The notes under the pieces: generated by a model
Seen by the model: only the letters and a program-made list of their open reading frames with translations
Told to the model about the DNA's origin: nothing
Database searches by the model: none
Translations under genes and position numbers: made by a program
Virus record (IMG/VR): IMGVR_UViG_3300003873_000055
Coordinates: 1-35,395 of that record
DNA: 35,395 nucleotides
Origin: a virus
Reading direction: 5' to 3' (one strand)
Shown: piece after piece, positions 11,400 to 33,674 of the stretch
Layout of the letters: every line of letters starts with the position of its first letter
Numbering within the stretch: position 1 is the first letter of the stretch

Positions 11400-11472
11400 G
11401 CCTTTATACTGCTAGGCAGCCACACAAACGGACCTCCTATATGCCACAGTGGCTGTCTACTAGTATAAAGGC
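11400..11472 (+). promoter_or_regulatory. Long hairpin burying the ribosome site of the 11478 gene
   Basis: Eleven bases (11400-11410) pair perfectly with 11462-11472. After a 2x2 internal loop, TAG/CTA, a G-U pair and CAGCCAC/GTGGCTG (11417-11423 with 11449-11455) continue the stem to about 22 pairs around a 25-nt loop. The 3' strand contains AAAGG (11467-11471), the only good ribosome site for ATG 11478, so the fold would block translation unless opened or cut. The size and internal loop also resemble RNase III processing sites in phage transcripts. Confidence 0.65.
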
Positions 11473-11477
11473 CGCCA

Positions 11478-12563: not shown

Positions 12564-12577
12564 TCACAGCTTAGTTT

Positions 12578-12598
12578 AAGTATACGTCAGCTATACTT
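12578..12598 (+). other. Hairpin before the original ssDNA-binding gene start
   Basis: AAGTATA (12578-12584) and TATACTT (12592-12598) form a 7-bp stem with a 7-base loop, 15 bases after the Sak4 stop. It has no T-run, so an attenuator, operator or processing site is more likely than a terminator. Confidence 0.4.
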
Positions 12599-12648
12599 TC
12601 CACCCCAATTGGATATTTACCTAACCAGAACACACAAGGAACTAACAC

Positions 12649-12681
12649 ATGGCTTTATTTACAGCTAAAAAAGACAGCTAA
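12649..12681 (+). pseudogene. Broken 5' end of the ssDNA-binding gene
   Basis: ATG 12649 reads MALFTAKKDS then TAA. It matches the start of the working gene at 13678, MSLFTARKDAES, at 7 of the first 9 residues, and the DNA matches closely over ATG-(GCT/AGC)-TTATTTACAGC. AAGGA (12636-12640) is a good ribosome site at normal distance. The homing gene lies between the two copies. This is the original start of the gene, truncated after ten codons by the insertion. Confidence 0.8.
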
Positions 12682-12722
12682 GTCTAAGGTTGCTATAAGC
12701 TGCTAAGGGGTATAGTACTGTT

Positions 12723-13673: not shown

Positions 13674-13677
13674 CAAT

Positions 13678-14376: not shown

Positions 14377-14626
14377 CCTCGTGCCGAGAGTTCACATAGG
14401 CACTAAACTTTGAACCCGAAGTTAACTAGCCCTTAGGTCAATACAAATGCTAGTAGTCCTGCTCATGGGACGTTAAAGAACATCCGGTGGAGCTTGTAAC
14501 GAGGAGAGATGTAACTCCCAAGCTGCGTAGCAAACTAAAATAAACAGTGTAGTGAGCAAGTATAACGGTACTACACATATTGTTACCTATTTAACGTAGG
14601 CAACCAAAACAAACAAAGGAAACAAC
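14377..14626 (+). other. Non-coding hairpin array after the ssDNA-binding gene
   Basis: I see no gene in these 250 bases. Stems: GTGCC/GGCAC (14381-14403), AACTT/AAGTT (14406-14423), ACTAGC/GCTAGT (14425-14454), GTCC/GGAC (14456-14471), AGCTTG/CAAGCT (14491-14524, enclosing GGAG/CTCC), GTGTAGT/ACTACAC (14547-14576) and GTT-CCTA/TAGG-AAC (14582-14604). TTGTAAC-N10-GTAAC occurs here (14494-14515) and also in the first gap (674-695). It looks like a structured RNA or a chain of processing sites rather than random spacer. Confidence 0.45.
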
Positions 14627-14752
14627 ATGAAGAAACAACTCGAAGAAATTTATAAGTTAGCTATGAAAAAAGGCGATTTATCTATAGCGTTATCTGTAGT
14701 GTCTATTAAGGCACAGTTAGAACAAGTAAAAATGCAAACTAAGGGCAAGTAA
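14627..14752 (+). CDS. Small helical protein of unknown function (41 aa)
   Basis: ATG 14627 follows AAAGGAAACAAC. The protein MKKQLEEIYKLAMKKGDLSI... is predicted to be two amphipathic helices. It ends at TAA 14752 and the next ATG follows immediately. No family is recognised. Confidence 0.55.
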   Translation: MKKQLEEIYKLAMKKGDLSIALSVVSIKAQLEQVKMQTKGK

Positions 14753-14935
14753 ATGGATATTAATAAACAACTTGAAGAATACAAAATAGTACTATTACAC
14801 GCTATCGAGGAAATCGACAGCTATACAACTAAGCCTATGAAGTCTAAGTCACTACGTATTAGAAAGCTATCTAACCAACTAGGTAAAGACGGTGTACACT
14901 TACGCAAAGACCTATTAGCAGCTGACAAGGCCTAG
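14753..14935 (+). CDS. Small basic helical protein (60 aa)
   Basis: It begins directly after the previous stop. The C-terminal half, SLRIRKLSNQLGKDGVHLRK then ADKA, is a basic amphipathic pattern like that of small phage proteins often seen near nucleotide-metabolism genes. DNA or RNA binding is possible. The exact family is unknown. Confidence 0.55.
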   Translation: MDINKQLEEYKIVLLHAIEEIDSYTTKPMKSKSLRIRKLSNQLGKDGVHLRKDLLAADKA

Positions 14936-14936
14936 C

Positions 14937-15062
14937 ATGTGTTACTTAAAGCGCTTAGTGGCAACACTATCCACACCAGTAACATGCACTAGAGGCTTTG
15001 TTATGTTCACATACATATCATTCGCACTAGTGTGGTTCAACTTCTTTCTAACAGGCAACTAA
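14937..15062 (+). CDS. Small single-pass membrane peptide
   Basis: A 41-residue frame from ATG 14937 to TAA 15062. The C-terminal half (about 22-38, FVMFTYISFALVWFNFF) is one clear membrane span, preceded by a basic stretch. It sits one base after the preceding stop and two bases before nrdB. No obvious ribosome site is seen apart from GACAAGG, so expression may depend on coupling. Confidence 0.45.
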   Translation: MCYLKRLVATLSTPVTCTRGFVMFTYISFALVWFNFFLTGN

Positions 15063-15064
15063 CA

Positions 15065-16075
15065 ATGTCCTGTCAGATGGAAACTCCAAACCCTCTTTTC
15101 GGTAAGTACTTGTACCCAATCGCCAAGGAGCTAATGGAGGAACAACAAAACAAGTTCTGGACTGCACAAGAAATCGACGTAGAAGGCGACATACACGACT
15201 ACCGCCATAACATGTCCTCCGAGCAGTTCGCACTAGTATCAACCACACTACAGTTATTCGTGGAAACCGAACAAGTAGTAGGCGACATATGGGGCATTAT
15301 AGCTTCTTGGTTCCCTCACTCCGAAATCGAAGGTGCTTGTACACAGGTCCAATCTATGGAGAAGTCCATCCACGCATTCTTCTACCAGAAGATGTCCGAC
15401 GAACTCAACATAGACCCGGAAACTGTAGCACGCAACCAGAAGGTAGTACACGAACTCAACTCAAAGCTAGTCATGCTAACTAACATCATGGCAACCGCTA
15501 AACAGGCAACTACACCAACCGAACGTGCAATGGTACTATTCACCGTATCACTAATCGAACAGGTAGTCCTATTCAGCAACTTTGCCATGCTCAAGTCTTT
15601 CCGTGCAAACGGTAACAGCCTAATCCCTAACACAATTACAGGGGTAAACTTCGTAGTCCAAGACGAGTCTATGCACGGGGTACTAGCTTCTTACTTATTC
15701 AACGAATACACTAAAGAGAACAACCTAGAACTACAGCTACCAGCAATCACAGAGGTAGTGCAGGAAGTGCTAATACGCGAAGACGCAGTAGTAGACTACT
15801 TATTCTTATCTGACGATATGCGTATCAACGGTATCGACCGACAGGACCTAAAAACCTTTATACGAGAACGTGTAAACTTTGTGTGCGACGAGATGAACAT
15901 ACCTAAATTCATAGTACCAGACAACGCGTCTAAGATCAGCGAGTGGTTCTTCCAAGGCATCAAAGCTATAACAATACACGACTTTTTCGTATCAGGCACA
16001 CACCAATACAACCGTAACTGGAGCCTAACGAAACTTAGTGCACTACCACACCTAGAGGAGCAACCTAATGAATAA
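15065..16075 (+). CDS. nrdB: Class I ribonucleotide reductase, small subunit
   Basis: The 336-residue R2 protein carries the metal site and radical that start reduction of ribonucleotides to deoxyribonucleotides. Aligned by eye, the ligands are Glu69 (LFVETE), Glu99 and His103 (MEKSIH), Glu165 (SLIEQVVLF), Glu201 and His204 (QDESMH); Tyr107, four residues after His103, fits the radical tyrosine. The Glu99-His103 spacing is one residue longer than the usual ExxH. I choose ATG 15065 over the GTG at 15032, which lies inside the membrane-peptide gene. The stop overlaps nrdA by 8 bases, so the two are coupled for equal synthesis. Confidence 0.9.
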   Translation: MSCQMETPNPLFGKYLYPIAKELMEEQQNKFWTAQEIDVEGDIHDYRHNMSSEQFALVSTTLQLFVETEQVVGDIWGIIASWFPHSEIEGACTQVQSMEKSIHAFFYQKMSDELNIDPETVARNQKVVHELNSKLVMLTNIMATAKQATTPTERAMVLFTVSLIEQVVLFSNFAMLKSFRANGNSLIPNTITGVNFVVQDESMHGVLASYLFNEYTKENNLELQLPAITEVVQEVLIREDAVVDYLFLSDDMRINGIDRQDLKTFIRERVNFVCDEMNIPKFIVPDNASKISEWFFQGIKAITIHDFFVSGTHQYNRNWSLTKLSALPHLEEQPNE

Positions 16076-17804
16076 GTACGAAACATACTCATTTGAACGC
16101 AAACAACTACAACTAGCAGGCAAAGCACCTGACTGGCTAACGACAGCAGGGTACCAACTCTTAGTCGAGCGTAACTACCTAATGGACGGCGAAACACCGC
16201 ACGATATGTACACACGTATAGCTAGTCGTGCAGACCAGCTACTAAACAACGAGGTACCTATACCAACTCCTTACACTAGTTGGTCTGACGCTTTCTTCTC
16301 AGTTATGTGGAAAGGTTGGCTATCACCAGCCACACCTGTCCTAACCAACATGGGAACTAATCGTGGCCACCCCGTCTCTTGTTCAGGTACTCACATACCC
16401 GACTCCATACGTGGGTTCTACGAAGCACGCCTAGAGATCGCCCAACTAACTCAACGTGGTTACGGCACCTCAGCAGGCTTAGACGAAATCAGACACCGTG
16501 GAGCACCTATCTCTAAGGGCGGTTCAGCAAACGGTATCATGCAACCTGCACACGGCATAGTCGACGACATGAAGGAAGTATCCCAAGGCTCATCTCGTAG
16601 AGGTAGCTGTGGTTTATACCTAGATATCATGCACCCCGACTTCGACGAACTAGCTGACCAACTAATAGCTGACGACCAGGGATGGAATGTAGGGTGGAAC
16701 CTAACTGAATCCTACAAGTCACTCTTCTTTAAGGACGCAACTGAAGCAGACCGTAGATGGACCAAAGTACTCAAAACAAAGCTAGTCAAAGGTAAGGGTT
16801 ACTTACACTTCCTAGACAAGGTTAACGCAGTACGCCCACAGATGTACGTAGACCGAGGTTACTTCGTAAAGCATTCTAACCTATGCTCCGAAATATCCCT
16901 ATTCAACGACGACGAGCACTCATTCACTTGTGTACTCTCCTCACTGAACATATCTAAGTACAACGAATGGAAGGACACTAACTTAATCCTAGTAGCCTCA
17001 GTATTCCTCGATACCGTCATAGACGATATGTTAGAGAAAGCTAAGGACGAACCAGGGTTTGACAAAGTCATCAAGTTCACAGAGAACACTAGAGCAGTCG
17101 GTCTAGGTGTACTAGGTTTATCCACGTACTACCAACAGCAAATGTGGGCATACGGTTCACTCGACTCTATCATGTTCAACCAGCAGCTCTTCAAGGAAAT
17201 GGACACCAAAACACTAGAAGCTTCTAAGTTACTAGCTAACTACCGTGGATGTCCTGACTACATGAAGCCTTACGGAGAACGTTTTTCACACCGAATAGCC
17301 TTACCTCCAACTATGTCCACAGCGGAACTACTAGGTGGTATCTCCCAAGGCATCGAACCAGTCTATGCTAACGTCTACGAAGCCCAAACAGCAGGCGGAA
17401 TAGTTTATCGTATTAACCCTACTCTCCTCTCATTAATGAAGGAACGAGGTGTATACACAAAGCAAACTATGCAGCGTATAGCAGAGAATCAAGGTTCGGT
17501 GTTCGCAGAGAACTGGCTACTAGACAGCGAGAAGGAAGTATTCCGTACAGCTTTCGAGCTAAACCAGGAAACTATACTCCTAATGGCATCACACCGTCAG
17601 AAGGCTATAGACGCAACTAGAGGTGGGCAAGGTCAATCACTAAACCTGTACTTCAAAGAAGAGACACCTGAGTCAGACATATCACGTCTTCACCTAAAGG
17701 CCTTCTTTGACCCGCATATCAAATCTCTATACTATGTACGTACACTGAACGAGAAGTCTAAACTAGACGTCCCTACTCCAGTTTGCCAATCATGTGAAGG
17801 GTAA
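16068..17804 (+). CDS. nrdA: Class I ribonucleotide reductase, large subunit
   Basis: This is the catalytic R1 subunit, 578 residues. The active-site NLCSE motif gives Asn271, thiyl Cys273 and Glu275. The redox pair is Cys105 (SCSGTH) and Cys288 (FTCVLSS), the radical-relay tyrosines are Tyr555-Tyr556 (LYYVRT), and a C-terminal CQSC (573-576) re-reduces the pair. It is much shorter than E. coli NrdA (about 760) and begins without the N-terminal ATP-cone, so it should escape normal dATP shut-off, a common phage trait. It overlaps nrdB by 8 bases. Confidence 0.92.
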   Translation: MNKYETYSFERKQLQLAGKAPDWLTTAGYQLLVERNYLMDGETPHDMYTRIASRADQLLNNEVPIPTPYTSWSDAFFSVMWKGWLSPATPVLTNMGTNRGHPVSCSGTHIPDSIRGFYEARLEIAQLTQRGYGTSAGLDEIRHRGAPISKGGSANGIMQPAHGIVDDMKEVSQGSSRRGSCGLYLDIMHPDFDELADQLIADDQGWNVGWNLTESYKSLFFKDATEADRRWTKVLKTKLVKGKGYLHFLDKVNAVRPQMYVDRGYFVKHSNLCSEISLFNDDEHSFTCVLSSLNISKYNEWKDTNLILVASVFLDTVIDDMLEKAKDEPGFDKVIKFTENTRAVGLGVLGLSTYYQQQMWAYGSLDSIMFNQQLFKEMDTKTLEASKLLANYRGCPDYMKPYGERFSHRIALPPTMSTAELLGGISQGIEPVYANVYEAQTAGGIVYRINPTLLSLMKERGVYTKQTMQRIAENQGSVFAENWLLDSEKEVFRTAFELNQETILLMASHRQKAIDATRGGQGQSLNLYFKEETPESDISRLHLKAFFDPHIKSLYYVRTLNEKSKLDVPTPVCQSCEG

Positions 17805-19321: not shown

Positions 19322-19482
19322 CTATAGCTAACTTATACACCACCATAACTAAGCTGAACAAGCTCAAGCTAAGCGGCGGCAAACGTTACACAACCATAGC
19401 AACCCTACTACAGAAAGAAGCTACCACACACAACTGTGCGGAAGTATTCTCTCTACTAGCTAAGCTAGAGGCCTCTGTGTAA
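19318..19482 (+). CDS. Small protein of unknown function at the convergent junction
   Basis: A 54-residue frame from GTG 19318, overlapping the MazG-like stop as GTGA, to TAA 19482. The sequence is Thr/Leu/Lys-rich and uses the phage's usual codons. Its last 18 bases overlap the 3' end of the leftward 1,405-residue gene. No strong ribosome site is present, so coupling to the previous gene would be needed. It is the last rightward frame I can support. Confidence 0.45.
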   Translation: MTIANLYTTITKLNKLKLSGGKRYTTIATLLQKEATTHNCAEVFSLLAKLEASV

Positions 19483-22400
19483 CGCCTCCGCCAACGGAAC
19501 TTTAGTACCACCTTCAAGCAGACTACCAATCCCATGGAACGGATTAAGTCTATTGAAGAACACACTAAATATATTACTATCGAAGATGTCTGACTGGTCA
19601 CCAAACGCTACCTGCTCTAGTTTACTAGCTGCAACCCTAGCAGGGGATTCTTTCAGCATCTTCACATTTACTCTCTGTATGTTAGCGAAGTACGTCCAAA
19701 ACGCTTCTGGACCCATTCTCTCTAACCATCTGACAGTTTTACTATTTATAACTTTGCTATAGTTAATAAAACTGTCCGTAACTAGTCTAAACACATCTTC
19801 CTTATCTTCACCCTTCTCGACCTTAGCCCAGTACAAAGCAGCTCTAAAGTGAAAGTCACTCTCTCTAGTGGCTCTTAGTAAGAACTGCCCAGCTTTACTT
19901 CGCTGTGTCAAGAACACTGTCTCAACTGCATCCTTAGCTAACCCACTCTCACCAGTTACCTTCTCAGTCATACCCCTTAGTTTCTTACTAATCCTATTCG
20001 TATCATCATATATAGCTACATCATCTACTACCGACTGATACAGTCCCTTGTCCATCAACGGCTTGAGCGGGTTGTTATCTAGTCTGTACATCATGTCTGA
20101 TATATCTCTCTCTAGCTTACTCTTCTTAGCCCCTTTAGCCCCTTTTACAAGTCGTTGCAGTCTATGCAACTCCTCTTCGTCTTTTTTCCAAGTATTCAAC
20201 GATCTAATACTCTTAATCATATACGTAACTGACTGTCTAACAGGCACACCACTATAGAACAGTATCCTCATGTTTGACAGTATATTATTCCATATAGTGC
20301 TAGGCAATCTAACAACTACGTTTCCTTTAAGCAACCCGACAAAGTCCTTCCAGTAGCTCTCTACTACTTGCACCTTATACTTAGTTCCTACGCTAACCTT
20401 ATCAAACACCTTCATATCCGTCACACTAGGTTCATTGTACCCAAACAACTGTGCAACTAAGTCTTTACGCACATACAGCTCTCTCCTAGGGTTCTCATCC
20501 ACCTGCTTCAACTGTTCCTCTAACGAAGCTCTAAACTTAGGGTCTGCATCATGTATCCTATTGTACACCTCAGTCCCTTTCTTCTTGGCATCCTCACGTA
20601 TCTTAGCCTTATCTATTTCGTTATTACGTCTAATCACGCTCTCTCTACCTGCAGGTGGCAATAACCCCCACAGCTCTTCACCTTTAGTCTTTATCCCGTA
20701 CTTACCCATATCAAGCAACTCTTTATGGCCACTCTCATACAGCTCACGTCTATCTTCTTCACTCATGTCAAAGTCTTTAGCCTTAACATGTATAAACAGT
20801 CTAGATGTATCATACGACGGATTACCTGAATCATTATATGTAGCCGCATAGTCCTTATACAGCACATCCAGTACTTTCTCATTCTCTTTATCAGTCATAG
20901 GCTGCGTACCTATATGCCCTTCACTCTTAGCAAGCACTTCAGCACCTCTAGTATCTAACTCTAAGTACTTAACCTTATCTTTCTTGCTAACCCCAAATCT
21001 AAAGTCAGTAATGTACCCTTGGTCATTGAACACAGGATGCATATCGCCCATGTCCTCACCTTCCATGTACTTTTGTATACTCATATTCCTACTAGTATTA
21101 TATAGTTTCCACACAGCATCTTCAGTCAACCCTGGGTTCGACATTCGTATCTTGTCTATTAACAGCAGCCCTTGTACCTTCTCTCTCTGCAATCCTACAG
21201 CACCATCCACACGCCCAGCTATCTTCATATTGCTGTTCACATACTTACCGTACTGCACAGGGTCACCATCTTTCAGGTCTCTATCTAGCACCTCCACTAG
21301 TGTGTATCCTAGCGAGTTCATCTTTTTCTTCTCAAACAGTGGCACTACTTGCAGTTCTCTATCTCTGTTATACGTATCTCTTACTTGTCCTTTTACGTAC
21401 TCATGTGCTTCATACTTTTGGTACTCCTCCCGTATAGCTGTCTGCAGTCCTCTAGCGTACTCAGTAAACGCCATCACACCTTCTGGGTCTTTCTTAGCTA
21501 ACTCTACTAGCGTATCTTTAGCCTCTTTACTAACTTTACCTAGTGCGTACAGAGTTATCAGCTTATCCACATCTTTAACTAACGCTTCATCTACTTCTCC
21601 CTCACTGTACCCTATAGGTTCTTGTGTACCAAACCCTCTAACTACGTTTTCAGCGTTAGTTCTTAGTCCTTTACCAGTCACGCTATACTCTGCTGCTTTA
21701 CGTGCACCTTCTATCACAGTACCGTACTTATACACACTAAGTGCACCACTAATGCGCTTCTCTAGCTCTTTTATCTTCTTGTTAGGGTTCTTTACATACC
21801 CAACTAGTTCATCCACACTATCAGCATCTAACGCTTGCAGGTCACTGGTCATTACTACAGCTTCTAATGCTTGGTCGTACTTTCTATTGCCTTTACCTAG
21901 CAAGTTCACCTTACTAAACATATCCTTGTACACATCCACTAGTGTACCTTCGTAGTTTTGGTGCCTTAGTCTATCAATATGTGATCTGAACTCCATAGTC
22001 AAATCAGTTACCATTTCTAGTGTTTTTCTACCTGCAGTGAAGTCTGCGAACAGTTTCCTAAGGAAGCTATCCTCTGCTATCTTCATCTCTGCAAGGAAGT
22101 TACCCCATAGTATCGCTACGTGTGCTCTATTGTTCTCTTCCGCACCTTGTATAGCTGCTTTAAACTTAGGTAGTATTCTAGCTAACTTAATAAACCTAAC
22201 TAGTATGTTGTCACTAGACTTTGGCCAGTTATGCTTTATAGGGTTATACAGGTCATCGAACTCTTGCTGTGTCATACCATCTTTAGTTATACCTAATGTA
22301 TTCTGTAGTAGGTCATCCACTCTACCAGACACAGCCTTATCCACACTATCTAGTACCTTATCTAGTCTCTCCGATATGTGCTCATCAGCATGCTTACCAC

Positions 22401-23682
22401 GTCTTAATGCAGCTTCACTACCGTACTTATCTTTTATTGCCATTAGTTTATACACAGTCTTTATCGACTCTTCTTCTAGTGTCTTACCTTTCGCACCCTT
22501 AAACTTATGTACAATACTAGCAAGGAAGTCAGCTATCATGTGCACTACTTTATCGTACATGCTTTTGTGTTCTACTTTCTTAGTTTCTGTACTCTTACTA
22601 GCTAGTGCGTTCTTCATCTGTTTATTAGTCATAGCATACGCCATAAACTCCTGCAGTCTCACACCTGCTGATCTAGTGTCTTCTTTACCTTTCTTACCAA
22701 ATATATAGTCATACCTAGCTTTAGCAGCTTCCTGTTCAGCTTCCGTGTATAGTCCATCCTTCACTAAGTCTTCCCACGTAACTGTTTCCTTGGCCTTCTT
22801 ATACAGGTCTTGTATCTGTAGCTTCAGTGCATCTGCTTCAGTCCCTGCATGCTTATTGTCAAACACCCAGTCTAACGCTGCATGCACTACCTCATGTACT
22901 AGTGTCTCCTCATTAGTCATAGTCAACCTATTTCTAGCTTCTTCACTCAACGTACCTGTCTTCACTTTTATAGGTGCTAATGGGTCATTCTTGTCAAACT
23001 GCCCATACGGTTCTACTACTTTCTCTATTTGTTCTTTATTTAGTTTTACCGTCACTCCACCTAAGTCTTTACTTAGTTTCATCACATTACTAAGCACACC
23101 GTCTAGGTACTCACCATGCGCACTATCATACTCTGCACCCATCAACCCTTTATCTAGTCGTCTAAGCTCATCTCTCACGTTAAGTATAGTATCCTCAGTG
23201 CTCTCATCTCCAAGGAACAGTCTATCTATGTCCTCGTCAGTTAGCTCATCTTTATTGTACAGCACATCCTCTACATACGCTCTTTTAGCTATTTCAGTCA
23301 CTGCAGGTATCTCTACCACTGTCCCATTAGCTTTGGTAGGGTTACTTTTCTCACTACCTTTAGCAAACGTATACTGAGTCTTATCCCCAAGTACAACCGT
23401 AGTAGTCTCATTCTTAGCACTAAACGTCACACTAACCACTCGATGCTTTACGCTCTTACCCTCTTTCGTAGGGTTCCCACTCTGGTAATGTACCCAAGAT
23501 TCCTCTGGCATCTTAGTTTTCACGCTCTCTGCCATACGCTCATTTCTACTCTTGTAGTAAGCTCGTTCTGCATGTAGCTGTGTAAGCAACTCCTCAGTTC
23601 TTAGCTCTAGCTCGTCACCACTGTACGTACCACTTAGCTCGTCTGTTACTTGTTGTCTCACCTCTTCTAAACTACATCCCAT
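19465..23682 (-). CDS. Giant virion-region protein with HExxH metallopeptidase motif (1,405 aa)
   Basis: A zinc metallopeptidase signature HEVVHAALD lies at residues 263-271 (His263, Glu264, His267) and Glu345 in LQEFMAY may be the third ligand, as in gluzincins. The rest is long, charged and helical with no fold I recognise. It lies directly after the RNA polymerase gene, in the same frame, with only TAG between (23,683-23,685), and AAGGA seven bases before ATG 23,682. It may be an ejected virion protein or the split-off C-terminal part of a polymerase of N4 size (about 3,500 residues; here 2,586 plus 1,405). The peptidase might process virion or host proteins; no substrate can be named. Confidence 0.65.
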   Translation of the reverse strand: MGCSLEEVRQQVTDELSGTYSGDELELRTEELLTQLHAERAYYKSRNERMAESVKTKMPEESWVHYQSGNPTKEGKSVKHRVVSVTFSAKNETTTVVLGDKTQYTFAKGSEKSNPTKANGTVVEIPAVTEIAKRAYVEDVLYNKDELTDEDIDRLFLGDESTEDTILNVRDELRRLDKGLMGAEYDSAHGEYLDGVLSNVMKLSKDLGGVTVKLNKEQIEKVVEPYGQFDKNDPLAPIKVKTGTLSEEARNRLTMTNEETLVHEVVHAALDWVFDNKHAGTEADALKLQIQDLYKKAKETVTWEDLVKDGLYTEAEQEAAKARYDYIFGKKGKEDTRSAGVRLQEFMAYAMTNKQMKNALASKSTETKKVEHKSMYDKVVHMIADFLASIVHKFKGAKGKTLEEESIKTVYKLMAIKDKYGSEAALRRGKHADEHISERLDKVLDSVDKAVSGRVDDLLQNTLGITKDGMTQQEFDDLYNPIKHNWPKSSDNILVRFIKLARILPKFKAAIQGAEENNRAHVAILWGNFLAEMKIAEDSFLRKLFADFTAGRKTLEMVTDLTMEFRSHIDRLRHQNYEGTLVDVYKDMFSKVNLLGKGNRKYDQALEAVVMTSDLQALDADSVDELVGYVKNPNKKIKELEKRISGALSVYKYGTVIEGARKAAEYSVTGKGLRTNAENVVRGFGTQEPIGYSEGEVDEALVKDVDKLITLYALGKVSKEAKDTLVELAKKDPEGVMAFTEYARGLQTAIREEYQKYEAHEYVKGQVRDTYNRDRELQVVPLFEKKKMNSLGYTLVEVLDRDLKDGDPVQYGKYVNSNMKIAGRVDGAVGLQREKVQGLLLIDKIRMSNPGLTEDAVWKLYNTSRNMSIQKYMEGEDMGDMHPVFNDQGYITDFRFGVSKKDKVKYLELDTRGAEVLAKSEGHIGTQPMTDKENEKVLDVLYKDYAATYNDSGNPSYDTSRLFIHVKAKDFDMSEEDRRELYESGHKELLDMGKYGIKTKGEELWGLLPPAGRESVIRRNNEIDKAKIREDAKKKGTEVYNRIHDADPKFRASLEEQLKQVDENPRRELYVRKDLVAQLFGYNEPSVTDMKVFDKVSVGTKYKVQVVESYWKDFVGLLKGNVVVRLPSTIWNNILSNMRILFYSGVPVRQSVTYMIKSIRSLNTWKKDEEELHRLQRLVKGAKGAKKSKLERDISDMMYRLDNNPLKPLMDKGLYQSVVDDVAIYDDTNRISKKLRGMTEKVTGESGLAKDAVETVFLTQRSKAGQFLLRATRESDFHFRAALYWAKVEKGEDKEDVFRLVTDSFINYSKVINSKTVRWLERMGPEAFWTYFANIQRVNVKMLKESPARVAASKLEQVAFGDQSDIFDSNIFSVFFNRLNPFHGIGSLLEGGTKVPLAEALHRGL

Positions 23683-26600
23683 CTACACATCCTTACACTT
23701 ATCTAGTATCTTATCCGCTATTTTATCCAATTCCGGATTAGTACTTGCTTTAGCCACTTTCACTGCTCTGTTGCCTAATGGAGTGTCCACCCCTGGCTCA
23801 TACGTCATTTCGCTAGGTAACTTACTCCTGTCTAGCTTAGTATTAGGCACTTTAGGCACATACTCTTCTTTACCATCAAATCGTACACCTGCACCGTCTA
23901 AGGCACTGTGTTCTACTTGTAGGTCAGCTTCAAACACTACCTTACGCCCTTTCTCAGCCACTTTCTGCAAGTCTTCCATATCTTTTACTACCGTATTCAT
24001 TGTAGGTAACGTATCTATACCGTCCATTCTACCTAATGTTATAGCAGCTATCGTAGTGTCGTCTGTCATACCTATCTCACTAATAGTATTTATGTACCCA
24101 TTATACGCATCAGCCAAGTCACCGCCTAGGGCACTAACATACGCTCTAGCCGCATTAGCTATCTCACTCTTATGTTCTGCTAGTTCTACGCTTATTGCCT
24201 TCTTCTCTGCGTATGGCAATCCCTCTAGTGCTACTGGCGCATCTCCAGTCACCTTATACAGGTCAGCATTAGTAGGGTCTTCTAATAGCTTCTTAGTCAT
24301 ACTGTCTAGGTAGTCCATCACCATATCCGTTTCTACCTCTTGTATTGCGTCACTACTCACACCATTTAACGTAACGTACATACTTTCTAGTATCTCAGTG
24401 GTCATACTCCAGTCTCTACTTAAGGTATACGCACTAGTATTATACCCTTTAGTTATGTCCACTATTTCGTTCACTTTACCGAAGTTGGCATCATGTACAC
24501 CTAGTGCTTTCCACTTAGCGAGTATCTGCGACTGTATAGAAGCATCTAGTGCGTGTATAGGCATTACAGCACCACTTGTATACGCAACCACCATTTTGTA
24601 CATAGCACTAGTAGCATTAAGCGTGTCACCATTCACTCTCTCTACACTAGCCTGCAACTTCATAGCAGTATCCATAGCACCTTCAGTCCAGTCACCTTTA
24701 GCTGTCTTAAACAACACCATCTGGTCACCGTTACCGTCATCTAGTGCCATATTGATCACAGGCATTAGTGTCTTATTGGCCTTAAGTATTTTGTCTACCT
24801 CTTTAGTAGTTAACGGTACCCACTTATTTCTATCTCTACCACTATTCTTTTCAGCTGTAGCTTCAGCTATCTTCTTATCCACATCTTTTAGTGCTAGTCT
24901 ACCCATCAACGCAACTGAGCTATTCACTGTTCTAGTTGCCTTAATCAGCTCACCGTACTGCTCTTCAAAGGCATCTCTTATTGGTTTGCCTATTACTTTA
25001 GCTACATGGTCTTTCACCGCACTGTAGAACTCTGCTGGCATCTCTATGTCTAGTGTAGCAGGGTCACCCTTCACTTCTTCTACTTTAGCTAACCATGCAT
25101 CTATCTTAGCTTCAGCTTCATAGTCACGTTTACCCGTAGCTGTATCCTTCATCATGTATGCTGACGCTTTTAGTGCTCTACTAAGTAGGTCAAACGCCTC
25201 ACCAACCTCTATGTTAGTGTTACCGCCATCAGCGTTTATTCCAGCTATAGTAGTCATTAACGCATTCAAGTTGGTCTTAGACGGATACGGAGTACCACTA
25301 GTAGACAACGCTCTCTTAGCTATACTATTAATTATACCTTTCATACCCGACCCGTAGTTAAGTACCATAAACGGTTGCTTCATAAACGCTCTCGACACTT
25401 CTTCTAGTATGTAGTCTAGGCCATCTCTGCTACCCTCACCAAGTAACTCCATAGCGGCTTCCATTCCTTGTAGTAGTCCTTTCGCCCTACCTTCTATGTC
25501 TTTACCTTTAGCCAATGCCGGGTGCACATACGCTTTACCGTTAAACAGTACTGGGTCTACAAGCTGTATTCCTGTTTCACCTTTTTTAGCCTTTAGCTTT
25601 GTAGACTCGCCTGTTCGTTTACTAGTTATTTTACCATCCTTAGACCTATTCCACTCCAAGTCTATGTCATCTTTCTCGGTAACTACATCGTGCTCTACAG
25701 GTTTTAGTATTACTCCACGTATTTCGTTACCATCCATTATATTTACTATTTTACTTTCGTCTATCTTACCTTTCAATATGTGTGCAGGTTGTTGGTACGC
25801 ATCTCTCTTAGTCGTGTCACTTGCTAAGTCTGAGTAGTTTATAGGCTCCTCACCTTCTAGCACTCTCATCACACCACCACGTTCTAGTTCTCCAAACGTC
25901 TTCTCTATGTCTAGTTCTCCACCTTTCATAAATATAGGCATCTGTAGCATCTTCAGTATGTACCCACTAGTTACCGCATCTGTCTCTAGTGTTATCGTAG
26001 ACACGTATGCCTCATCCGAGTTGCTGTCCTTATAGCTCATATACTTAAGTATCTCAGCCATACTACGTAGTCCATGTTCATCATGCACATTCAACGCATC
26101 AGCGACTACGCCTAGTTGTTCTGCACTAGCTTCCTGTACAGTTAGTACCTTATCACCAAATACACCTCTAACAGCACTCTCTAGCTTGTCATACTCTTCA
26201 ACCGACTTGTCCATAGGCAACTTGTCTACATCCACTCCTAGGCCTTGTCCTATGGCTAGCTTTAGTATAGTCTCTTCTTTACTACCACTTCTAACCTCTG
26301 CACTACCTCTATCTGTAGCAAACCTATGTAGCTTAATCGCTTGGTGGTCGAACTTACCGCCAATTACACCGAATCTAAAGTTAGTCAGTACTCTCCACTT
26401 CTGCCAGAACGGTTTCTTACCCTTCTCTGTAGCTTCATTCACCTCACTAAGTAGCTTCTTCTGTCTATCAACAGCGTTGTTCTTACCCTTAGTACTAGTA
26501 CGTTCGTTTACATACACCCTATCCGGGTTAATCTTACCAAGTATGCCATCTAGCTTCGAGTACGACTCATCTTTACCAGCTCCTAGTTTTACCCCTACAG

Positions 26601-29600
26601 TATCTAACTTGTACATCAACTCAATCACATCTTGGTTAATGTGTAGTTCAGTGCTATCTTGGTTCTCTACTGCTTCCACTCTAGTCTTTGCAGGTGTACC
26701 AGCTAACTTACTAACTCCTTGGTGTTCAGTTCTCACAGCCTCCATTTCATTTCTAGTCTCTTTAGTATATATACCTAGCGCATCACTGTCTTCTTCCAGC
26801 ACTATTGCTAAGTCCACTGCCATACCTTTACCGGTTCTAAGCACTTCCTTGCCTTTAGCAGTTACACTATATGTTACTACGTCAGCTCCAGCTTTACTCT
26901 CATCATCGTATATTATTACAGCAGGTGTTCTTTTACCCTCGATAAACTCTAGTCTAGTTTTCTCACTAGCATCTCTAGCTTTATCGTTTAGTTTTATTAA
27001 TCCTCTATTTTCTAGTGCTAACACACCTATCATACCTAACTCAGCTTTTACCTTCTGCTCTATACGCTTAGGGTCTATACCTTCTGGTCCTTCCTTCACA
27101 GCTGTCAATCCTAGTGCACTCCATGCCTTCTCCCCTATGTTACTAGCTACAAAGTCCATTATACCATCAAACCCAGCTACAGACGCTCTATCCTCTGGCC
27201 CTACTGCTGCATTACTGTCCATACCCTTTAGCGAACGTACAGCGTTATCGTCTCTAGTTCCAGCTTCAAATGTAGCTACTGTGTCCATCAGTGCTTCTAG
27301 TGTGCTAGCTGCTAGTGCTTCTTCTACCTTGTCATTTAGTTCTCTAGCAGTCCCGTTATGTGTCATCAACATTCGACTCACACCTTGGAACCCTTCTTCA
27401 CCGTTACTACCGAACCACACCATGTTTGTAGTCGTACCTTTTAGGTCTTTGTTGACTACACTAGCTATTGCCCCTCTTAGCGTTTTTATACGTTTTTGTG
27501 CAACTTCTAGGTTGTCCTTCGCTTTACTGCCTAATGTAGTATCTCCACTCAACGCCTCAGCGATCACCTCAGTAGCTATTGCATTGTTGTTCCTAGGTTG
27601 TGTAGCCGCCTTAAAGAACTCATGTAGGAAACCCTTATCGTTCTTAGCTATTGTCAGCTTACCGCTCTGACCTTCAATCTTAGTTCTAGCTTTGTACTTC
27701 TCAGTCCATGCAAGCACTTCTCTAGCTACGTGGTTATCTCGTAGGTTACGCTCATCTACTAGCGCTTCTTTACGCACCCTCTTCTCCGATAGCGCTATTT
27801 TACTTTTACGTACATTTTGTACAGCAGTTTGTACCCCTTCAGCTTTGGCTAGTAGTTCATCTTTTTGCTTTCTAACTTTATCTTTATGCTGTTCTAACTT
27901 ATCTTGAGTAGCAACTAATCGCGTAACACCGTCTACTAGACTTTTAGTATCAGAGGCAGGTAAGGCTTTAAGTGTTTCGTCTATTTTGCTTATTCTAGCC
28001 GCCAACTTTTTTGACCTATCTTTGGCCCATTCTTTAGTAGCCTTTAGCCCTTTAGCTATGTAGTTCATAGTACCTTTTGCACTATAACCCTCTGTTAGCA
28101 CCTTAAGGTTCTCTACTTTAGCCTGTACATCTTTCTCTAACGCCCCTATCTCCACTTCTAAGTCAGCTATCTCTTTATCTAGTGGTGTTAGTTCTTCTTG
28201 CTGTGTAGGTTCTCCGCTCTGTGTATCGCTTTGTCCAGCATCTTGCTTTGTTCCTGTAGTAGTTGTTTTTTCTTCTGTAGTAACTTTAGCTTCTTCATTT
28301 TGTTTTCCATTGTCTTGTCCTTTTTCTTTTTGTGCTAACTCAGCTGCAACACTCGCAACTAGCTTAGGGTTGTTTGTCTTAAACTCTTCTCGCATAGTAT
28401 CAGTTATCTCTTTCTTAGGCTTAACCCCAGTCAGTAACCCCTTAGCTATTTTTCTACCTATCTTATCGTTTACGCCATAACTAATCGAGTGCCACGGTGT
28501 ACTACTAGGTTTCTCACTAGGTTTCACTTTCACACCGTTAGTAGCTATCTCTGCTAACTTCTGCAGTAGCTCATGTTCTTTCACCAGCTTATTGGTAAAC
28601 CCTTCTGATACACCGCCTCTATACTCATAGTTGCTACCTGCGTATTTAACCGGTTTCTTTAGTTTAGCTATCTCTGCTTGTACATTCTTGTACCCTTCAG
28701 TGTTCTTATCCATACTACTAAGCTTAGCGTCTAGTGCTTCTCGGTCCTTAGTGTAGGCTTCCTTAGCACTCTTAAACGCATCTATCTTCTGGCTTTGTGT
28801 GCTCATAAACGCATTCATACCGTCTAGCGCATACTGTCTAGCGTCCTCAGTCTTAGCGTGCAGTGCCATGTCTACGTACTCTAGCATACCTAGCTTCTTC
28901 TTACCCTTAAATGTACCACCCACTAGTTTCAGTTTCAGCGAGTCAGTACCACTAGCTTTATCGTTAATGTCCACCTTGTCGAAGTCTTTACTAAACACAT
29001 GCTCACTAACTAGCTTCTCTGCTGCCAACTTAGCTAACTCTATCTGTTTACCTGATGTATCTACACCCTTACCTACAGTAGCGATCTCATTCTCTACCTT
29101 AGCCATTAGTGCTGCTACTTCTTTGGGGTCTCTATTACCTAGTGCCTCTGATTCACCACTAGCTTTACGTCTCAAGCTTATAGCTTCCTGTAGGTGCTTA
29201 ACTACCTTCTCTTTCTCTGCTTCCACCTCTGGTGTACTGTCCATTGCGTCTAGCGACTTCAAGTGCCCAGTTAACCCATCTATTGCAGTGTTTAGTCCTG
29301 GCTTCCCACTCTTCGAGTCATCCAGTACAGCCTTAGTGTCTTGTCCGTTAGTAGCTAGTTTCTCGTACACATCCTTGTATACGGCCATGTTTGTCATAGC
29401 CCTACCTGCTTCAGCTCTACTAGTGTTAACCTGCTCCTCGCTAACTACTGGTACATTCTCAGTGTTCTCACTGCGCTTAGGCATCTTTACATTACCTAGC
29501 TCATGTAGTACTTGTGCAGCACCACCTATGTGTCCACCACCGACACCTTCTATACCAGCCACTTTAGCGTCTAGTTGGTTTTTACTGTTACTTAGTATAC

Positions 29601-31443
29601 TGCCTACATCGTCACCTTTCTTACCAGTACTCCATTGTTTACCTAGTATGTCTGCCCATTGTTGTACGTACTCCTCCGTACCTTCTACTACTGCACCCTT
29701 ACCGAATGCTCCACCAACTCTACCAGCTGTCTTAAGTACTTTCTTCCATAGCTGATCTGTTGCTTTCTTACCTAGCAAACTAGCTGACTCTTTCAGTGCA
29801 TTTACTATTGGTTTAGTTAGTATCTTAGCACTCTCTAACCCTACGTACGTTTGTAGTGCTGCTGATGGTATAGCTATAGCTATGTCTTTTAGCCCAGCGT
29901 GTTGTTGTCCTTCGGCTTTATTTCTAGCTCCTAGTGTATCGTTAACCATACCGGTAAACATAGCCGTAGCACCTGCTTTCTCTATACCCTTAGCAAGTAT
30001 CTTCTGTGCTACGTTCATACGCTTGTTAGCCACTTCCATCAACTTAGCTGCTTCTACTGTCTTTCCTGCAGTTAGCATCTCGTTAGCCTTAGCGTATGCT
30101 TTAGCTATTTTACCGCTATTACTAGCTACCATAGTACCCGCTTTTATCTCTCCAACACCTAGCCAGAACGTAGCTACACTACCTACTATGTTACCACTAA
30201 TATTACCACTACTCATCGCATGCCATGCAGCTGTACCGTAGTTGCCTTTCTTCACGTCTTCTTCTACTTGTAGTTGTTCTCTCTGTGCTTGTGCAGTGTT
30301 CACTCCAAACGCAGAATCGGTCATCTTGCCTATGTCTTCGCTCTTGTAGTACTCTTTAGTGTCATCATAGCCATTACCGCCTAACCAGCTAGCTACTCCA
30401 TTCATCTTGTAGCTATGCCCTAGTGCGTCTTTCTTATCTGCTTCTAGCTTAGCTTTCTCTTCTTCAGTATCAGCGTTAGCTATTTGGTGGTCATAGTACG
30501 CCTCTTCCGTCTTAGCTATTGCCCAGTCTGGCAGGTCATTTACTATCGCATCTTCTGCTTGCCCTATAGTACTAACTACAGTACTAGCTGCACCTTTAGC
30601 TAACCCAGTCAACCAACTATCGTCAGTGTTCCCTACTCTGTCCATCGCCTCTAGGTCTGCATCCGTTATTAACCGAATACCCTTACTACTAGTTGCGTTA
30701 CCAAACGGATCCTGGTACTGGAACCTTCCACCAGTATTTGCTTGCTTGTCATTGTGTATCACCTTATTTAGGTCTACCCCATCATCCGTAGCTAGGTAGC
30801 CAAGTGTTCTACTCATGCTAGGTTTCTTTACACCCTTTACCTTAACATGTATGCCCATACCTTCGCCATCACCGTATAGTTCTTTACCTAGTTGTACTCT
30901 ACCGCCTTTCACATACGGTGCTCTCCACTCACTGTTACCGTTCATTATGTCCGATAGCTGCTGTACTTTATTCATACTAGCTATATCTAGCATATCACTC
31001 TCAGTCACATTGTCTGCCGTCTTGTTAGCACTAGGGTCATACTGGTTAATTATATCAGCTACTCCCTGTCGTTGTGCATCCATTGATAGAGCACTCTTTC
31101 TGTACTTATACTTAGGGTCTCCACTTCTCTTTAGCGAAGGGTCAACACCGTACATGTCGTATGGGTGGTTCCCATGTTTTGTCTCTATTGCATCTGTACC
31201 TGCTGTTCTATACGTACTCTCTAACCCAGTCTCAGGGTCTACCGTAGTGAACCCATCTCCGTCATCCCCAGTATACTTTAGTATCGCATCACTGTACGTA
31301 CTTAGCCCTGTTGAGGATAGTCCATTTACTTTTTCTTGTTTTTTGTTTTGTAGGTTGTTTATTTTATCTGTAGTAGTTGAACCACCAAACGCCGCTATGT
31401 TAGCAGCTACGGCTTGTTCTGGGTCTTCGAGGAATTGTGGCAT
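23683..31443 (-). CDS. Giant virion RNA polymerase-like protein (2,586 aa)
   Basis: Single-subunit RNA polymerase motifs occur in the right order: a (D/T)xxGR-like loop TNFRFGVIGG (Arg1690), motif A ETDAVTSG (Asp1822), motif B KQPFMVLNYGSG (Lys2022, Tyr2030) and motif C IHALDAS (His2297, Asp2300). Motif C is H-x-x-D, not the HD of T7. N4 virion RNA polymerase has the same kind of core inside a giant structural protein and is injected to transcribe early genes. The N-terminal 700 residues contain hydrophobic Gly/Ala-rich stretches (about 420-445, 520-545) and GTEEYVQQ (near 595); a low-complexity linker (about 1040-1065) precedes a coiled-coil region (about 1070-1210). A late promoter lies just upstream. 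Confidence 0.75.
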   Translation of the reverse strand: MPQFLEDPEQAVAANIAAFGGSTTTDKINNLQNKKQEKVNGLSSTGLSTYSDAILKYTGDDGDGFTTVDPETGLESTYRTAGTDAIETKHGNHPYDMYGVDPSLKRSGDPKYKYRKSALSMDAQRQGVADIINQYDPSANKTADNVTESDMLDIASMNKVQQLSDIMNGNSEWRAPYVKGGRVQLGKELYGDGEGMGIHVKVKGVKKPSMSRTLGYLATDDGVDLNKVIHNDKQANTGGRFQYQDPFGNATSSKGIRLITDADLEAMDRVGNTDDSWLTGLAKGAASTVVSTIGQAEDAIVNDLPDWAIAKTEEAYYDHQIANADTEEEKAKLEADKKDALGHSYKMNGVASWLGGNGYDDTKEYYKSEDIGKMTDSAFGVNTAQAQREQLQVEEDVKKGNYGTAAWHAMSSGNISGNIVGSVATFWLGVGEIKAGTMVASNSGKIAKAYAKANEMLTAGKTVEAAKLMEVANKRMNVAQKILAKGIEKAGATAMFTGMVNDTLGARNKAEGQQHAGLKDIAIAIPSAALQTYVGLESAKILTKPIVNALKESASLLGKKATDQLWKKVLKTAGRVGGAFGKGAVVEGTEEYVQQWADILGKQWSTGKKGDDVGSILSNSKNQLDAKVAGIEGVGGGHIGGAAQVLHELGNVKMPKRSENTENVPVVSEEQVNTSRAEAGRAMTNMAVYKDVYEKLATNGQDTKAVLDDSKSGKPGLNTAIDGLTGHLKSLDAMDSTPEVEAEKEKVVKHLQEAISLRRKASGESEALGNRDPKEVAALMAKVENEIATVGKGVDTSGKQIELAKLAAEKLVSEHVFSKDFDKVDINDKASGTDSLKLKLVGGTFKGKKKLGMLEYVDMALHAKTEDARQYALDGMNAFMSTQSQKIDAFKSAKEAYTKDREALDAKLSSMDKNTEGYKNVQAEIAKLKKPVKYAGSNYEYRGGVSEGFTNKLVKEHELLQKLAEIATNGVKVKPSEKPSSTPWHSISYGVNDKIGRKIAKGLLTGVKPKKEITDTMREEFKTNNPKLVASVAAELAQKEKGQDNGKQNEEAKVTTEEKTTTTGTKQDAGQSDTQSGEPTQQEELTPLDKEIADLEVEIGALEKDVQAKVENLKVLTEGYSAKGTMNYIAKGLKATKEWAKDRSKKLAARISKIDETLKALPASDTKSLVDGVTRLVATQDKLEQHKDKVRKQKDELLAKAEGVQTAVQNVRKSKIALSEKRVRKEALVDERNLRDNHVAREVLAWTEKYKARTKIEGQSGKLTIAKNDKGFLHEFFKAATQPRNNNAIATEVIAEALSGDTTLGSKAKDNLEVAQKRIKTLRGAIASVVNKDLKGTTTNMVWFGSNGEEGFQGVSRMLMTHNGTARELNDKVEEALAASTLEALMDTVATFEAGTRDDNAVRSLKGMDSNAAVGPEDRASVAGFDGIMDFVASNIGEKAWSALGLTAVKEGPEGIDPKRIEQKVKAELGMIGVLALENRGLIKLNDKARDASEKTRLEFIEGKRTPAVIIYDDESKAGADVVTYSVTAKGKEVLRTGKGMAVDLAIVLEEDSDALGIYTKETRNEMEAVRTEHQGVSKLAGTPAKTRVEAVENQDSTELHINQDVIELMYKLDTVGVKLGAGKDESYSKLDGILGKINPDRVYVNERTSTKGKNNAVDRQKKLLSEVNEATEKGKKPFWQKWRVLTNFRFGVIGGKFDHQAIKLHRFATDRGSAEVRSGSKEETILKLAIGQGLGVDVDKLPMDKSVEEYDKLESAVRGVFGDKVLTVQEASAEQLGVVADALNVHDEHGLRSMAEILKYMSYKDSNSDEAYVSTITLETDAVTSGYILKMLQMPIFMKGGELDIEKTFGELERGGVMRVLEGEEPINYSDLASDTTKRDAYQQPAHILKGKIDESKIVNIMDGNEIRGVILKPVEHDVVTEKDDIDLEWNRSKDGKITSKRTGESTKLKAKKGETGIQLVDPVLFNGKAYVHPALAKGKDIEGRAKGLLQGMEAAMELLGEGSRDGLDYILEEVSRAFMKQPFMVLNYGSGMKGIINSIAKRALSTSGTPYPSKTNLNALMTTIAGINADGGNTNIEVGEAFDLLSRALKASAYMMKDTATGKRDYEAEAKIDAWLAKVEEVKGDPATLDIEMPAEFYSAVKDHVAKVIGKPIRDAFEEQYGELIKATRTVNSSVALMGRLALKDVDKKIAEATAEKNSGRDRNKWVPLTTKEVDKILKANKTLMPVINMALDDGNGDQMVLFKTAKGDWTEGAMDTAMKLQASVERVNGDTLNATSAMYKMVVAYTSGAVMPIHALDASIQSQILAKWKALGVHDANFGKVNEIVDITKGYNTSAYTLSRDWSMTTEILESMYVTLNGVSSDAIQEVETDMVMDYLDSMTKKLLEDPTNADLYKVTGDAPVALEGLPYAEKKAISVELAEHKSEIANAARAYVSALGGDLADAYNGYINTISEIGMTDDTTIAAITLGRMDGIDTLPTMNTVVKDMEDLQKVAEKGRKVVFEADLQVEHSALDGAGVRFDGKEEYVPKVPNTKLDRSKLPSEMTYEPGVDTPLGNRAVKVAKASTNPELDKIADKILDKCKDV

Positions 31444-31487: not shown

Positions 31488-31503
31488 TAACTAAGCTTAG
31501 TTA
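31488..31503 (-). promoter_or_regulatory. 16-base palindrome just upstream of the late -10
   Basis: TAACTAAGCTTAGTTA is a perfect palindrome that ends beside the TGG of the extended -10 and covers the stop codon of the 569-residue gene. It lies where the spacer and -35 would be, so it is a candidate operator or activator site. The 33,716 promoter lacks it. Confidence 0.5.
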
Positions 31504-33206
31504 GCTTTCAATGACTCCATTATCGCTTTACGTAGTTTGTACGGTAGCGACGGGTTCGATTGCATAGCCTCTATTTGTGGTGTAGAGTAGCGGTCTTTTA
31601 GCACCTCTGCTAGTGTTTTATCGCTATACTGAGACGAGCCAGGGATATTACCACTCTTACTTTTACGGAAGTCTCCCTTATCATAGTTGCCTATAAGTTG
31701 TTTTATATCTTTACTATGTTTAGTGACAAACCTAGACGACTCAACTTTTTCGTTTATTACGGAGGGGCTATTAGTAACAGTCAATCCTTTACCTATGTTA
31801 CGTATAAAGCTACGTACTGCATCACCGTTAGTAGTGTGTTTCGTAGGCTTCACGACAGTCGCATCCGTCACAGTCTTTACTCCATCGCTGTTACCGTCAA
31901 CTATAGTCTTCACTACATCCCCATTACCGCCTACAGTAGTCTTAGTTGTATCACCTGTTCCCGGTACTTCCACTATTTGCTTAGTGTGTTTACCGCCACC
32001 AGTGCCCCCACCTGTGCCACCAGTCTTAGTCGGCGCTACTACCTTCTTTTTACTTTGTGCGCCTATACCGTCTAGTATACTTTGGTAGTTGTTCCTCTTC
32101 GCTAGTAACTGACTTAGCGACTCACCTGTTACGTAGTGTGGTGTTACTCTAGCTATTTGTTCATCTGTTAATTTAGCTACTGTTTTACGTCCAGTACCAC
32201 CGAAGTGTCCACTGTTCTTGCGTAGGTTGTTAATAAACCCTTGTGCATCTTTACGTATCGCTTTATTATCTAGTGTGAATATACCACTAGCAAAGTCATA
32301 GTTATCTCCCATAACTCCTGGGTCAAGCTTAGACGCAATGTATGCTTCTACTTCTTTAGGCTGCATTACACCCGTGCTAGTAAGGTCTTTTAGCACTTTC
32401 CTAGCCTTAGTGTCATCCCACTTTATACCGTATCCAGATGCTATACCCTCTAGGTTTTTACGTATCTTAGTTATGTCACCGCCGCTATAGGCGTATCCAC
32501 CACCTTTACCACTAGTGCCCTTACCGTTAGCTATGTCTATCTTCTTATCTAGCCCTAGTTGGTATCTAGCGTTTTCTACTCTTAGTTTCTCTGCATCGTT
32601 ATACGACTTAACTCTAGCTGATTCGTTAGCAAGTATTTCTTTCTTAGTGTCGTATCCTTCACTTAGTCGGTTAGCTGCGTTAGTTGCTTCAGTCAGAGTA
32701 CCACCGTGTGCAAGCACGTAGTCGGAAACGTATTGCGATACTTTACTCTTCACTGGGTTAAACCCTGAGTCGTATATACCATCGAACTGTGCTTGTTGGT
32801 CACCTGTTAGTGGCACAGTACCGTTCTTAGTCAACTCATTGTATCTACGTTCTTTAGCTGCTGTTATAGTGCTACGTAGGGCATCTCCCATTACAGTGTG
32901 GTGACCAAACCCTGTAGCTAGTTCTGCAGTAGTTTTTCTTACTCCTAGCATCCTAGCCAGTTCGTGTTGTTGGTCATCAAACGTAGTCTGTTGTCTATCA
33001 GCACTTGCTGTAGCTAGCCCATTAGCAAACTCTCTCTGCTTACGTGCTTCTTCGTCCTGTGTAGCTTGTTGTGCAAGGGCGTCCTTCTTAGCTCGTATGT
33101 CACTAGCATCCTTCATTATAGTACCGATATTAGTTAGCGCTCTCTGAGCACCTGCTGTAGGGTCAACTACGGTACCTATAGTGGTGTTTAGTTTCATCAT
33201 TGCCAT
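31497..33206 (-). CDS. Virion internal-type protein (569 aa)
   Basis: The N-terminal 300 residues are helical and rich in Ala, Lys and Gln, typical of ejected internal proteins. A Gly-rich linker (GGTGGGTGGG) and a Thr/Val/Asp-rich segment with repeated KT-VDGN-type units follow (about 395-455), then a basic C-terminal domain. No catalytic motif is seen. It lies between the 152-residue gene and the polymerase gene; N4 encodes internal virion proteins gp51 and gp52 next to its polymerase gp50, so the position suggests a similar role. AAGGA precedes ATG 33,206. Confidence 0.6.
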   Translation of the reverse strand: MAMMKLNTTIGTVVDPTAGAQRALTNIGTIMKDASDIRAKKDALAQQATQDEEARKQREFANGLATASADRQQTTFDDQQHELARMLGVRKTTAELATGFGHHTVMGDALRSTITAAKERRYNELTKNGTVPLTGDQQAQFDGIYDSGFNPVKSKVSQYVSDYVLAHGGTLTEATNAANRLSEGYDTKKEILANESARVKSYNDAEKLRVENARYQLGLDKKIDIANGKGTSGKGGGYAYSGGDITKIRKNLEGIASGYGIKWDDTKARKVLKDLTSTGVMQPKEVEAYIASKLDPGVMGDNYDFASGIFTLDNKAIRKDAQGFINNLRKNSGHFGGTGRKTVAKLTDEQIARVTPHYVTGESLSQLLAKRNNYQSILDGIGAQSKKKVVAPTKTGGTGGGTGGGKHTKQIVEVPGTGDTTKTTVGGNGDVVKTIVDGNSDGVKTVTDATVVKPTKHTTNGDAVRSFIRNIGKGLTVTNSPSVINEKVESSRFVTKHSKDIKQLIGNYDKGDFRKSKSGNIPGSSQYSDKTLAEVLKDRYSTPQIEAMQSNPSLPYKLRKAIMESLKAN

Positions 33207-33215: not shown

Positions 33216-33674
33216 TTACTTATTACCGGGGTTAAATATCTGTTGTATGTGGTTGTTATCCGCTACCGTCTTATTGTAGTTGTAACTATTCTGTTTAGCT
33301 TGCTGATCCATCAAGTGTCTTTGCTTATTAGCTGTTTTCTGCTGTTCGAAGTAACTAGCTACACCTAGTGCAAGTTGTCCAGCACCTAGTAGTGTACCGC
33401 CTAACCCATCTTTACCCCATGTACTTGTACCGTTATCATGTTTCTTGTAGAAAGCGTCACCCTGTTTCTTATAGAAAGCGAACGCATCAGCATTAGCTGG
33501 GTCGTTTTTCCACGTGTTAAACTGACTTTGGTCATAAACGCCAGTACTCGTATCTGTGGAGCCTGTATTCACACTTGTACCTGGAGTATTAGTGTTTACC
33601 CCATTAGCTGCTAACCCCTCATCGTTTACAAGTGTCTGCTTACCATCTGCCCCTAGCTTAAAAACGTATCCCAT
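33216..33674 (-). CDS. Small virion protein with Gly/Ala-rich hydrophobic segment (152 aa)
   Basis: The N-terminal half is Thr/Asn/Ser-rich and disordered-looking. A hydrophobic stretch GLGGTLLGAGQLALGVASYF (about 91-110) is followed by a Gln/Asn/Lys-rich helix. This layout resembles short phage ejection proteins that cross the host membrane, for example N4 gp52 and T7 gp14, but I cannot show homology. AGGAG precedes the ATG. A late promoter (33,716-33,726) drives it, and a hairpin sits directly before the ribosome site. Confidence 0.55.
   Translation of the reverse strand: MGYVFKLGADGKQTLVNDEGLAANGVNTNTPGTSVNTGSTDTSTGVYDQSQFNTWKNDPANADAFAFYKKQGDAFYKKHDNGTSTWGKDGLGGTLLGAGQLALGVASYFEQQKTANKQRHLMDQQAKQNSYNYNKTVADNNHIQQIFNPGNK

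Follow-up and report, generated by a model that had tools for sequence, protein, structure and literature searches.

Predicted N4-type virion RNA polymerase encoded in two genes, with single cysteines at the facing ends of its subunits

The window, i.e., the whole stretch of 35,395 nucleotides of viral DNA analyzed here, contains a leftward block of virion genes in which two long open reading frames lie end to end (Table 1). The longer frame, designated subunit A, was found as described in the original prediction, which had proposed that this 2586-residue protein includes a single-subunit RNA polymerase of the kind carried in the virion of phage N4. This claim is supported because three lines of evidence point to it: a phage protein profile, the alignment of catalytic motifs with N4, and matches of the predicted fold with N4 mini-vRNAP. 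The profile PHROG_2206 “virion RNA polymerase” matched residues 842-1896 with an E value of 1.7e-58, which is well above chance. It had also been expected that ordinary searches could miss the polymerase; this held for Pfam and PDB sequence searches, which gave no polymerase match with the 2586-residue protein, but not for the phage HMMs of PHROG, which find it. A match of the protein to cohesin (7rpy, E 0.019) was judged to be chance. An AlphaFold model was obtained for residues 1580-2586 (pLDDT 83.1, pTM 0.83), and its best PDB matches were all N4 mini-vRNAP/gp50 entries (Foldseek E 2.8e-23; VIA Z 26.0 over 709 residues with an rmsd of 3.7 against N4 mini-vRNAP), followed by T7 and mitochondrial RNA polymerases. 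A fold without a polymerase palm, named beforehand as the outcome that would speak against the proposal, was thus not obtained. From profile, motifs and model, subunit A is predicted to be the polymerase part of an N4-type virion RNA polymerase.

Arg1690, Asp1822, Lys2022, and Tyr2030 are present as had been listed, and correspond in the alignment to R424, D559, K670, and Y678 of N4 gp50 mini-vRNAP, respectively. The first three are strictly invariant in 47 relatives (columns R111, D243, and K443 of alignment A5). Motif C had been assigned to Asp2300 in PIHALD, and this assignment was wrong. Asp2300 is conserved, yet it lies 18 residues ahead of Asp2318 (LGVHDAN), with which N4 D951 aligns and which is strictly invariant in the 47 relatives; the adjacent His2317 is kept in 90% or more of them. 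The N4 gp50 alignment therefore rules out Asp2300 as motif C, and because motif C is Asp2318, the distance from motif A to motif C becomes 496 residues instead of 478, compared with 392 in N4. T7 RNA polymerase belongs to the same superfamily by fold (VIA Z about 16-19.5), but it is one compact subunit made in the host after infection and is not carried in the virion.

Table 1. Features of the predicted split virion RNA polymerase and its neighbors in the window.
Feature	Position	Strand	Basis
Subunit A, 2586 aa, N-terminal and polymerase regions of predicted N4-type vRNAP	23683..31443	-	PHROG_2206, structure match
Predicted polymerase core, residues 1601-2368	24340..26643	-	Profile match; model of 1580-2586
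Arg1690 (N4 R424)	26374..26376	-	Alignment
Asp1822, motif A (N4 D559)	25978..25980	-	Alignment, invariant in 47
Lys2022, motif B (N4 K670)	25378..25380	-	Alignment, invariant in 47
Tyr2030, motif B (N4 Y678)	25354..25356	-	Alignment
Asp2318 in VHDAN, true motif C (N4 D951)	24490..24492	-	Alignment, invariant in 47
Cys2583, sole cysteine of subunit A, 4 residues from C-terminus	23695..23697	-	
Subunit B, 1405 aa, predicted C-terminal part of same vRNAP	19465..23682	-	PHROG_2206, E 3.6e-124
Cys3, sole cysteine of subunit B	23674..23676	-	Invariant in alignments A1 and A4
HEVVH (HExxH), zincin-like, C1 subdomain of subunit B	22882..22896	-	Motif in almost all relatives including N4
Cysteine-free 569-aa protein at position of N4 gp51 (ejection protein)	31497..33206	-	N4 synteny; no family match
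152-aa protein at position of N4 gp52	33216..33674	-	N4 synteny; weak PHROG “virion structural protein”, E 6e-4

The second frame, subunit B, matched positions 2228-3010 of PHROG_2206, a later part of the profile than that matched by subunit A, and its start codon follows the stop of subunit A directly (TAG and then an in-frame ATG, with no gap). The two subunits together span the architecture of N4 gp50, and the proteins at the gp51 and gp52 positions adjoin them. Read from the sequence, the vRNAP of the window is two separately encoded proteins, the 1405-residue product being its C-terminal part. A model of subunit B residues 1-620 was too weak to judge the fold from (pLDDT 69.5), with N4 gp50 as the best match (E 0.06). 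Polymerase fold, catalytic residues, three-domain order, the HExxH motif in the C-terminal region, the gene order beside gp51/gp52 and the location in a virion gene block are all shared with the N4 vRNAP (gp50; PHROG_2206; PDB 2PO4, 3C2P, and 9PNQ). This HExxH motif has already been reported for N4 (PMC12633501), and one AD45-like subclade has EExxH instead. The gene lies in the leftward block with the gp51- and gp52-position genes. As an N4-type enzyme, the predicted vRNAP would be packaged in the virion, ejected, and active on early genes with hairpin promoters, and early transcription may, by analogy with N4, be independent of the host RNA polymerase.

Two properties usual in the N4-type family are changed in the window. 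A single chain of about 3500 residues, which is dispensable for activity, is replaced by chains of 2586 and 1405 residues from abutting genes, and the absence of cysteine is replaced by one cysteine per subunit at the facing ends, the interior being cysteine-free as in N4. We have filed this two-gene vRNAP as a structural variant of the N4-type family. The same split is found in the locus L002 and also in four Alteromonas phages, AD45-P1 to P4. These Alteromonas phages share with the window the cut at the same linker, the tail and head cysteines, and adjacent ribonucleotide reductase and DNA polymerase genes; they differ in having been deposited as a “potential frameshift”, and their proteins are about 21-22% identical to those of the window.

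N4-like vRNAPs are known to be cysteine-free, which has been explained by passage through the tail and the oxidizing periplasm (PMC3715699, PMC3915230, PMC2784036), and we found no cysteine in the vRNAPs of N4, PT15-A5, and PEV2. Terminal cysteines as in the window occur in L002, in Alteromonas phage AD45-P2, and in the three-part L003 (1361, 1152, and 1397 residues), whose middle part is nearly as long as mini-vRNAP. Relatives were gathered from viral contigs and grouped (126 loci), and 36 clusters were cut into two to four pieces. A cysteine pair, one among the last residues of the upstream piece and one among the first residues of the downstream piece, was present at 52 of 52 junctions in these clusters. 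Of 109 cysteines in 138,693 residues, 104 are no more than 7 residues away from an internal end, a zone comprising 0.5% of residues, and none lies at an outer end (binomial log10 P of -229 for this placement, which is not a true probability since the rows are related). Exactly 2(n-1) cysteines, for n pieces, were counted in 31 of the 36 clusters. The uncut relatives have two cysteines in about 114,000 residues (34 proteins), and ejection proteins at the gp51 position have none (15 of 15). Among 108 unrelated neighboring ORFs, a cysteine was found in the first 7 residues of 3 and in the last 7 residues of 10, and no ORF had terminal cysteines only.

The N-terminal subunits of L016, L017, L028, and L084 were recognized partly by their terminal cysteine, which is circular; this does not affect the junctions between polymerase and C-terminal subunits, which were found by homology alone in 32 clusters and have the pair in all of them. 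Some starts of downstream subunits were picked by the analyst among in-frame ATGs (e.g., L041, L043, and L051), and that of L039 is GTG. Subunit genes can be apart, with gaps of up to 2.5 kb and other genes between them, while a 675-nt “gap” in L032 is in fact another cysteine-ended subunit (224 aa). The pattern of paired junction cysteines in the sequences is certain.

The cysteine rule is coupled to gene fission and fusion. On a tree built on the C-terminal part (SH-aLRT support, a quick method), the split between polymerase and C-terminal parts arose once and was reversed once, and all 32 such junctions come from one fission event. For the N-terminal and polymerase parts, the tree shows 6 changes of split state, and 5 changes bring in an additional cysteine-ended subunit. 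Split rows have the cysteines and unsplit rows lack them in 59 of 60 and 69 of 70 cases; the supported independent pairs all go in the same direction, and are too few for significance alone. In L073, which is sister to the split L051, the parts were fused again by a deletion that removed tail and head together with both cysteines. The linkers of N4 at 907-1007 and 2102-2123 are disordered (PMC12633501), and they lie about 330-430 residues before and 107-128 residues after the polymerase profile, respectively. Many N-terminal cuts lie 345-443 residues before the profile, and most cuts between polymerase and C-terminal parts lie 84-250 residues after it. Since the cuts are mostly near the two flexible linkers of N4, the pieces are natural versions of its folded units.

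The same arrangement was found in crAss-like phages, whose polymerases we take to belong to a different RNA polymerase family from the N4-type. In phi14:2, gp78 (1797 aa; C1797), gp77 (2180 aa; C3 and C2179), and gp76 (1421 aa; C3) have no other cysteine. The pieces of crAss001 are gp47 (C2339 of 2341 residues), gp50 (C5, C2404, and one interior cysteine), and gp49 (C5), gp47 being encoded on the opposite strand from the others. The pair was present at 14 of 14 junctions in eight crAss-like phages chosen to sample the hit list broadly, with the chain order gp47-gp50-gp49 deduced from the very cysteines in question; crAss002 conforms once an internal MSC start is taken. Both systems have several giant virion proteins (for the window, genes only) with cysteines at the internal ends and none at the outer ends, whereas polymerase family, gene order, and strand differ, and in several crAss-like phages the middle subunit contains additional cysteines in its interior. 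In L135 (cr116, 6043-16908), a 215-aa gene seemingly interrupts the middle subunit, of which the first part has at least 10 cysteines, unlike the others. The polymerase pieces of crAss001 were detected in virions by mass spectrometry, with both reduced and unreduced samples analyzed, and must partly unfold to cross the tail (PMC10172136).

The recurrence of cysteines at facing ends, across dozens of phages and again in a polymerase family that is unrelated, suggests end-to-end joining by disulfides. We give a probability of roughly 0.7 to the reading that, in the virion, separately made segments are linked by interchain disulfides into one chain, and formation of the bond at the junction cysteines is about equally probable. 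As we infer the course of events, a giant N4-type chain was cut in a flexible inter-domain linker, and subunits A and B would be translated separately. C2583 at the tail of A and C3 at the head of B would then form a disulfide in the mature virion, presumably after assembly, giving a continuous chain A-S-S-B. This chain, otherwise free of cysteine as in N4, could be ejected through the tail and the oxidizing periplasm without scrambling; that it passes as a single thread is an evenly balanced proposition. The reducing host cytoplasm would break the bond, and the polymerase module thus freed would transcribe early genes. Where a chain has several junctions, correct pairing of cysteines must come from domain contacts.

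An alternative is that the terminal cysteines link like subunits or stabilize an internal core, rather than rebuilding one linear chain to be ejected. A virion does contain such cargo in several copies; for crAss001, the estimate is about six copies of each RNAP-associated protein (PMC10172136). However, the cysteines are always matched between upstream tail and downstream head, never occur at outer chain ends, and both vanish upon gene fusion, and we regard this alternative as unlikely. Still less probable is a role of the pair in metal binding, as a redox switch, or as a thioredoxin contact between subunits, with no lasting disulfide. Each junction does supply two cysteines, but zinc or FeS sites usually require four ligands, and each end has one lone cysteine with neither CxxC nor a conserved histidine adjacent. 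A thioredoxin-domain protein is encoded by AD45-P1 (72326-72571 of the record) and by cr111 (47978-48247 of the record); it may simply serve ribonucleotide reductase, and in AD45-P1 the class Ia enzyme accounts for it. A search for thioredoxin in the window gave only a sub-threshold Thioredoxin_3 match inside a zinc-finger/nuclease-like protein.

The split vRNAPs of AD45-P1 and pSb-1 were noticed in a 2023 survey, which put them down tentatively to gene calling or readthrough and excluded proteins shorter than 2500 residues (PMC10654107). Because an in-frame ATG directly follows the TAG in the window, readthrough would yield an A-B fusion, and a sequencing frameshift could likewise hide one full-length chain. 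The splits in Shigella pSb-1, Salmonella As2, and L086 do resemble frameshift errors; as judged from assembled sequence, they are likely artefacts, as they lack cysteines and show either overlapping reading frames or a break within a folded domain. On the other hand, an in-frame arrangement holds for only 14 of the 47 close junctions, 14 junctions have a one-base overlap, and some pairs of halves have other genes between them or are encoded on opposite strands. These data rule out readthrough or sequencing error as a general cause, and dozens of phages, assembled independently, have the split together with a cysteine on either side of it, in contrast to the frameshift cases, so that a single hidden chain is very improbable. 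That the Cys codons act at the nucleic-acid level, as a gene-boundary signal for translation coupling or reinitiation, is hardly credible despite the TAATG overlap at many junctions, since both codons occur (TGT/TGC 46/7 upstream and 44/8 downstream), positions shift by several codons, and the pattern holds over gaps of 187-2462 nt and between genes on opposite strands.

Under the reading by disulfide joining, at least two unrelated vRNAP families may use disulfide-joined segments that form one oxidized thread, pass the tail in order, and are released in the cytoplasm, with cargo swappable as cysteine-ended segments; we consider this generalization about an even bet. The return of cysteines only at cuts, on both sides, and in two polymerase families points to very large proteins made and delivered piecewise. 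The pattern would explain split loci so far filed as frameshifts or gene-calling errors, and provides a sequence rule for recognizing and ordering ejected cargo, including that of crAss-like phages of the human gut. Searches of the openly licensed literature gave no description of terminal cysteines in split virion polymerases.

Cargo may be gained or lost by insertion or deletion of a cysteine-ended segment, candidates being the inserts of 224-776 residues and a segment with NADAR and a Pif1/UvrD-type helicase. L036, L038, L047, L065, and L068 have segments of 360-776 residues inserted between the polymerase and C-terminal subunits; each end of a segment bears a cysteine, and most of the segments contain an HExxH motif of their own. 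A Pfam search on six inserted segments gave nothing convincing. The 2821-residue polymerase subunit of L122 (1011-9476) has NADAR (Pfam E 9.6e-11) and AAA/Pif1-UvrD-type helicase (E 2.1e-18) domains between the polymerase core and the tail cysteine, apparently as extra injected cargo. In L044 (1-1629), a stop interrupts the polymerase frame near motif C, after PIHFIDGA, with no cysteine. L003 shares sequence with the contig of L126 (JALWON010000323.1), which was assigned to a Sulfurimonas MAG by binning; this gives a weak hint of a Campylobacterota host. Homing-endonuclease-like genes (GIY-YIG, T5orf172, and treble-clef) are present among the replication genes of the window at 967-1443, 2983-3579, 5848-6933, and 8763-9524.
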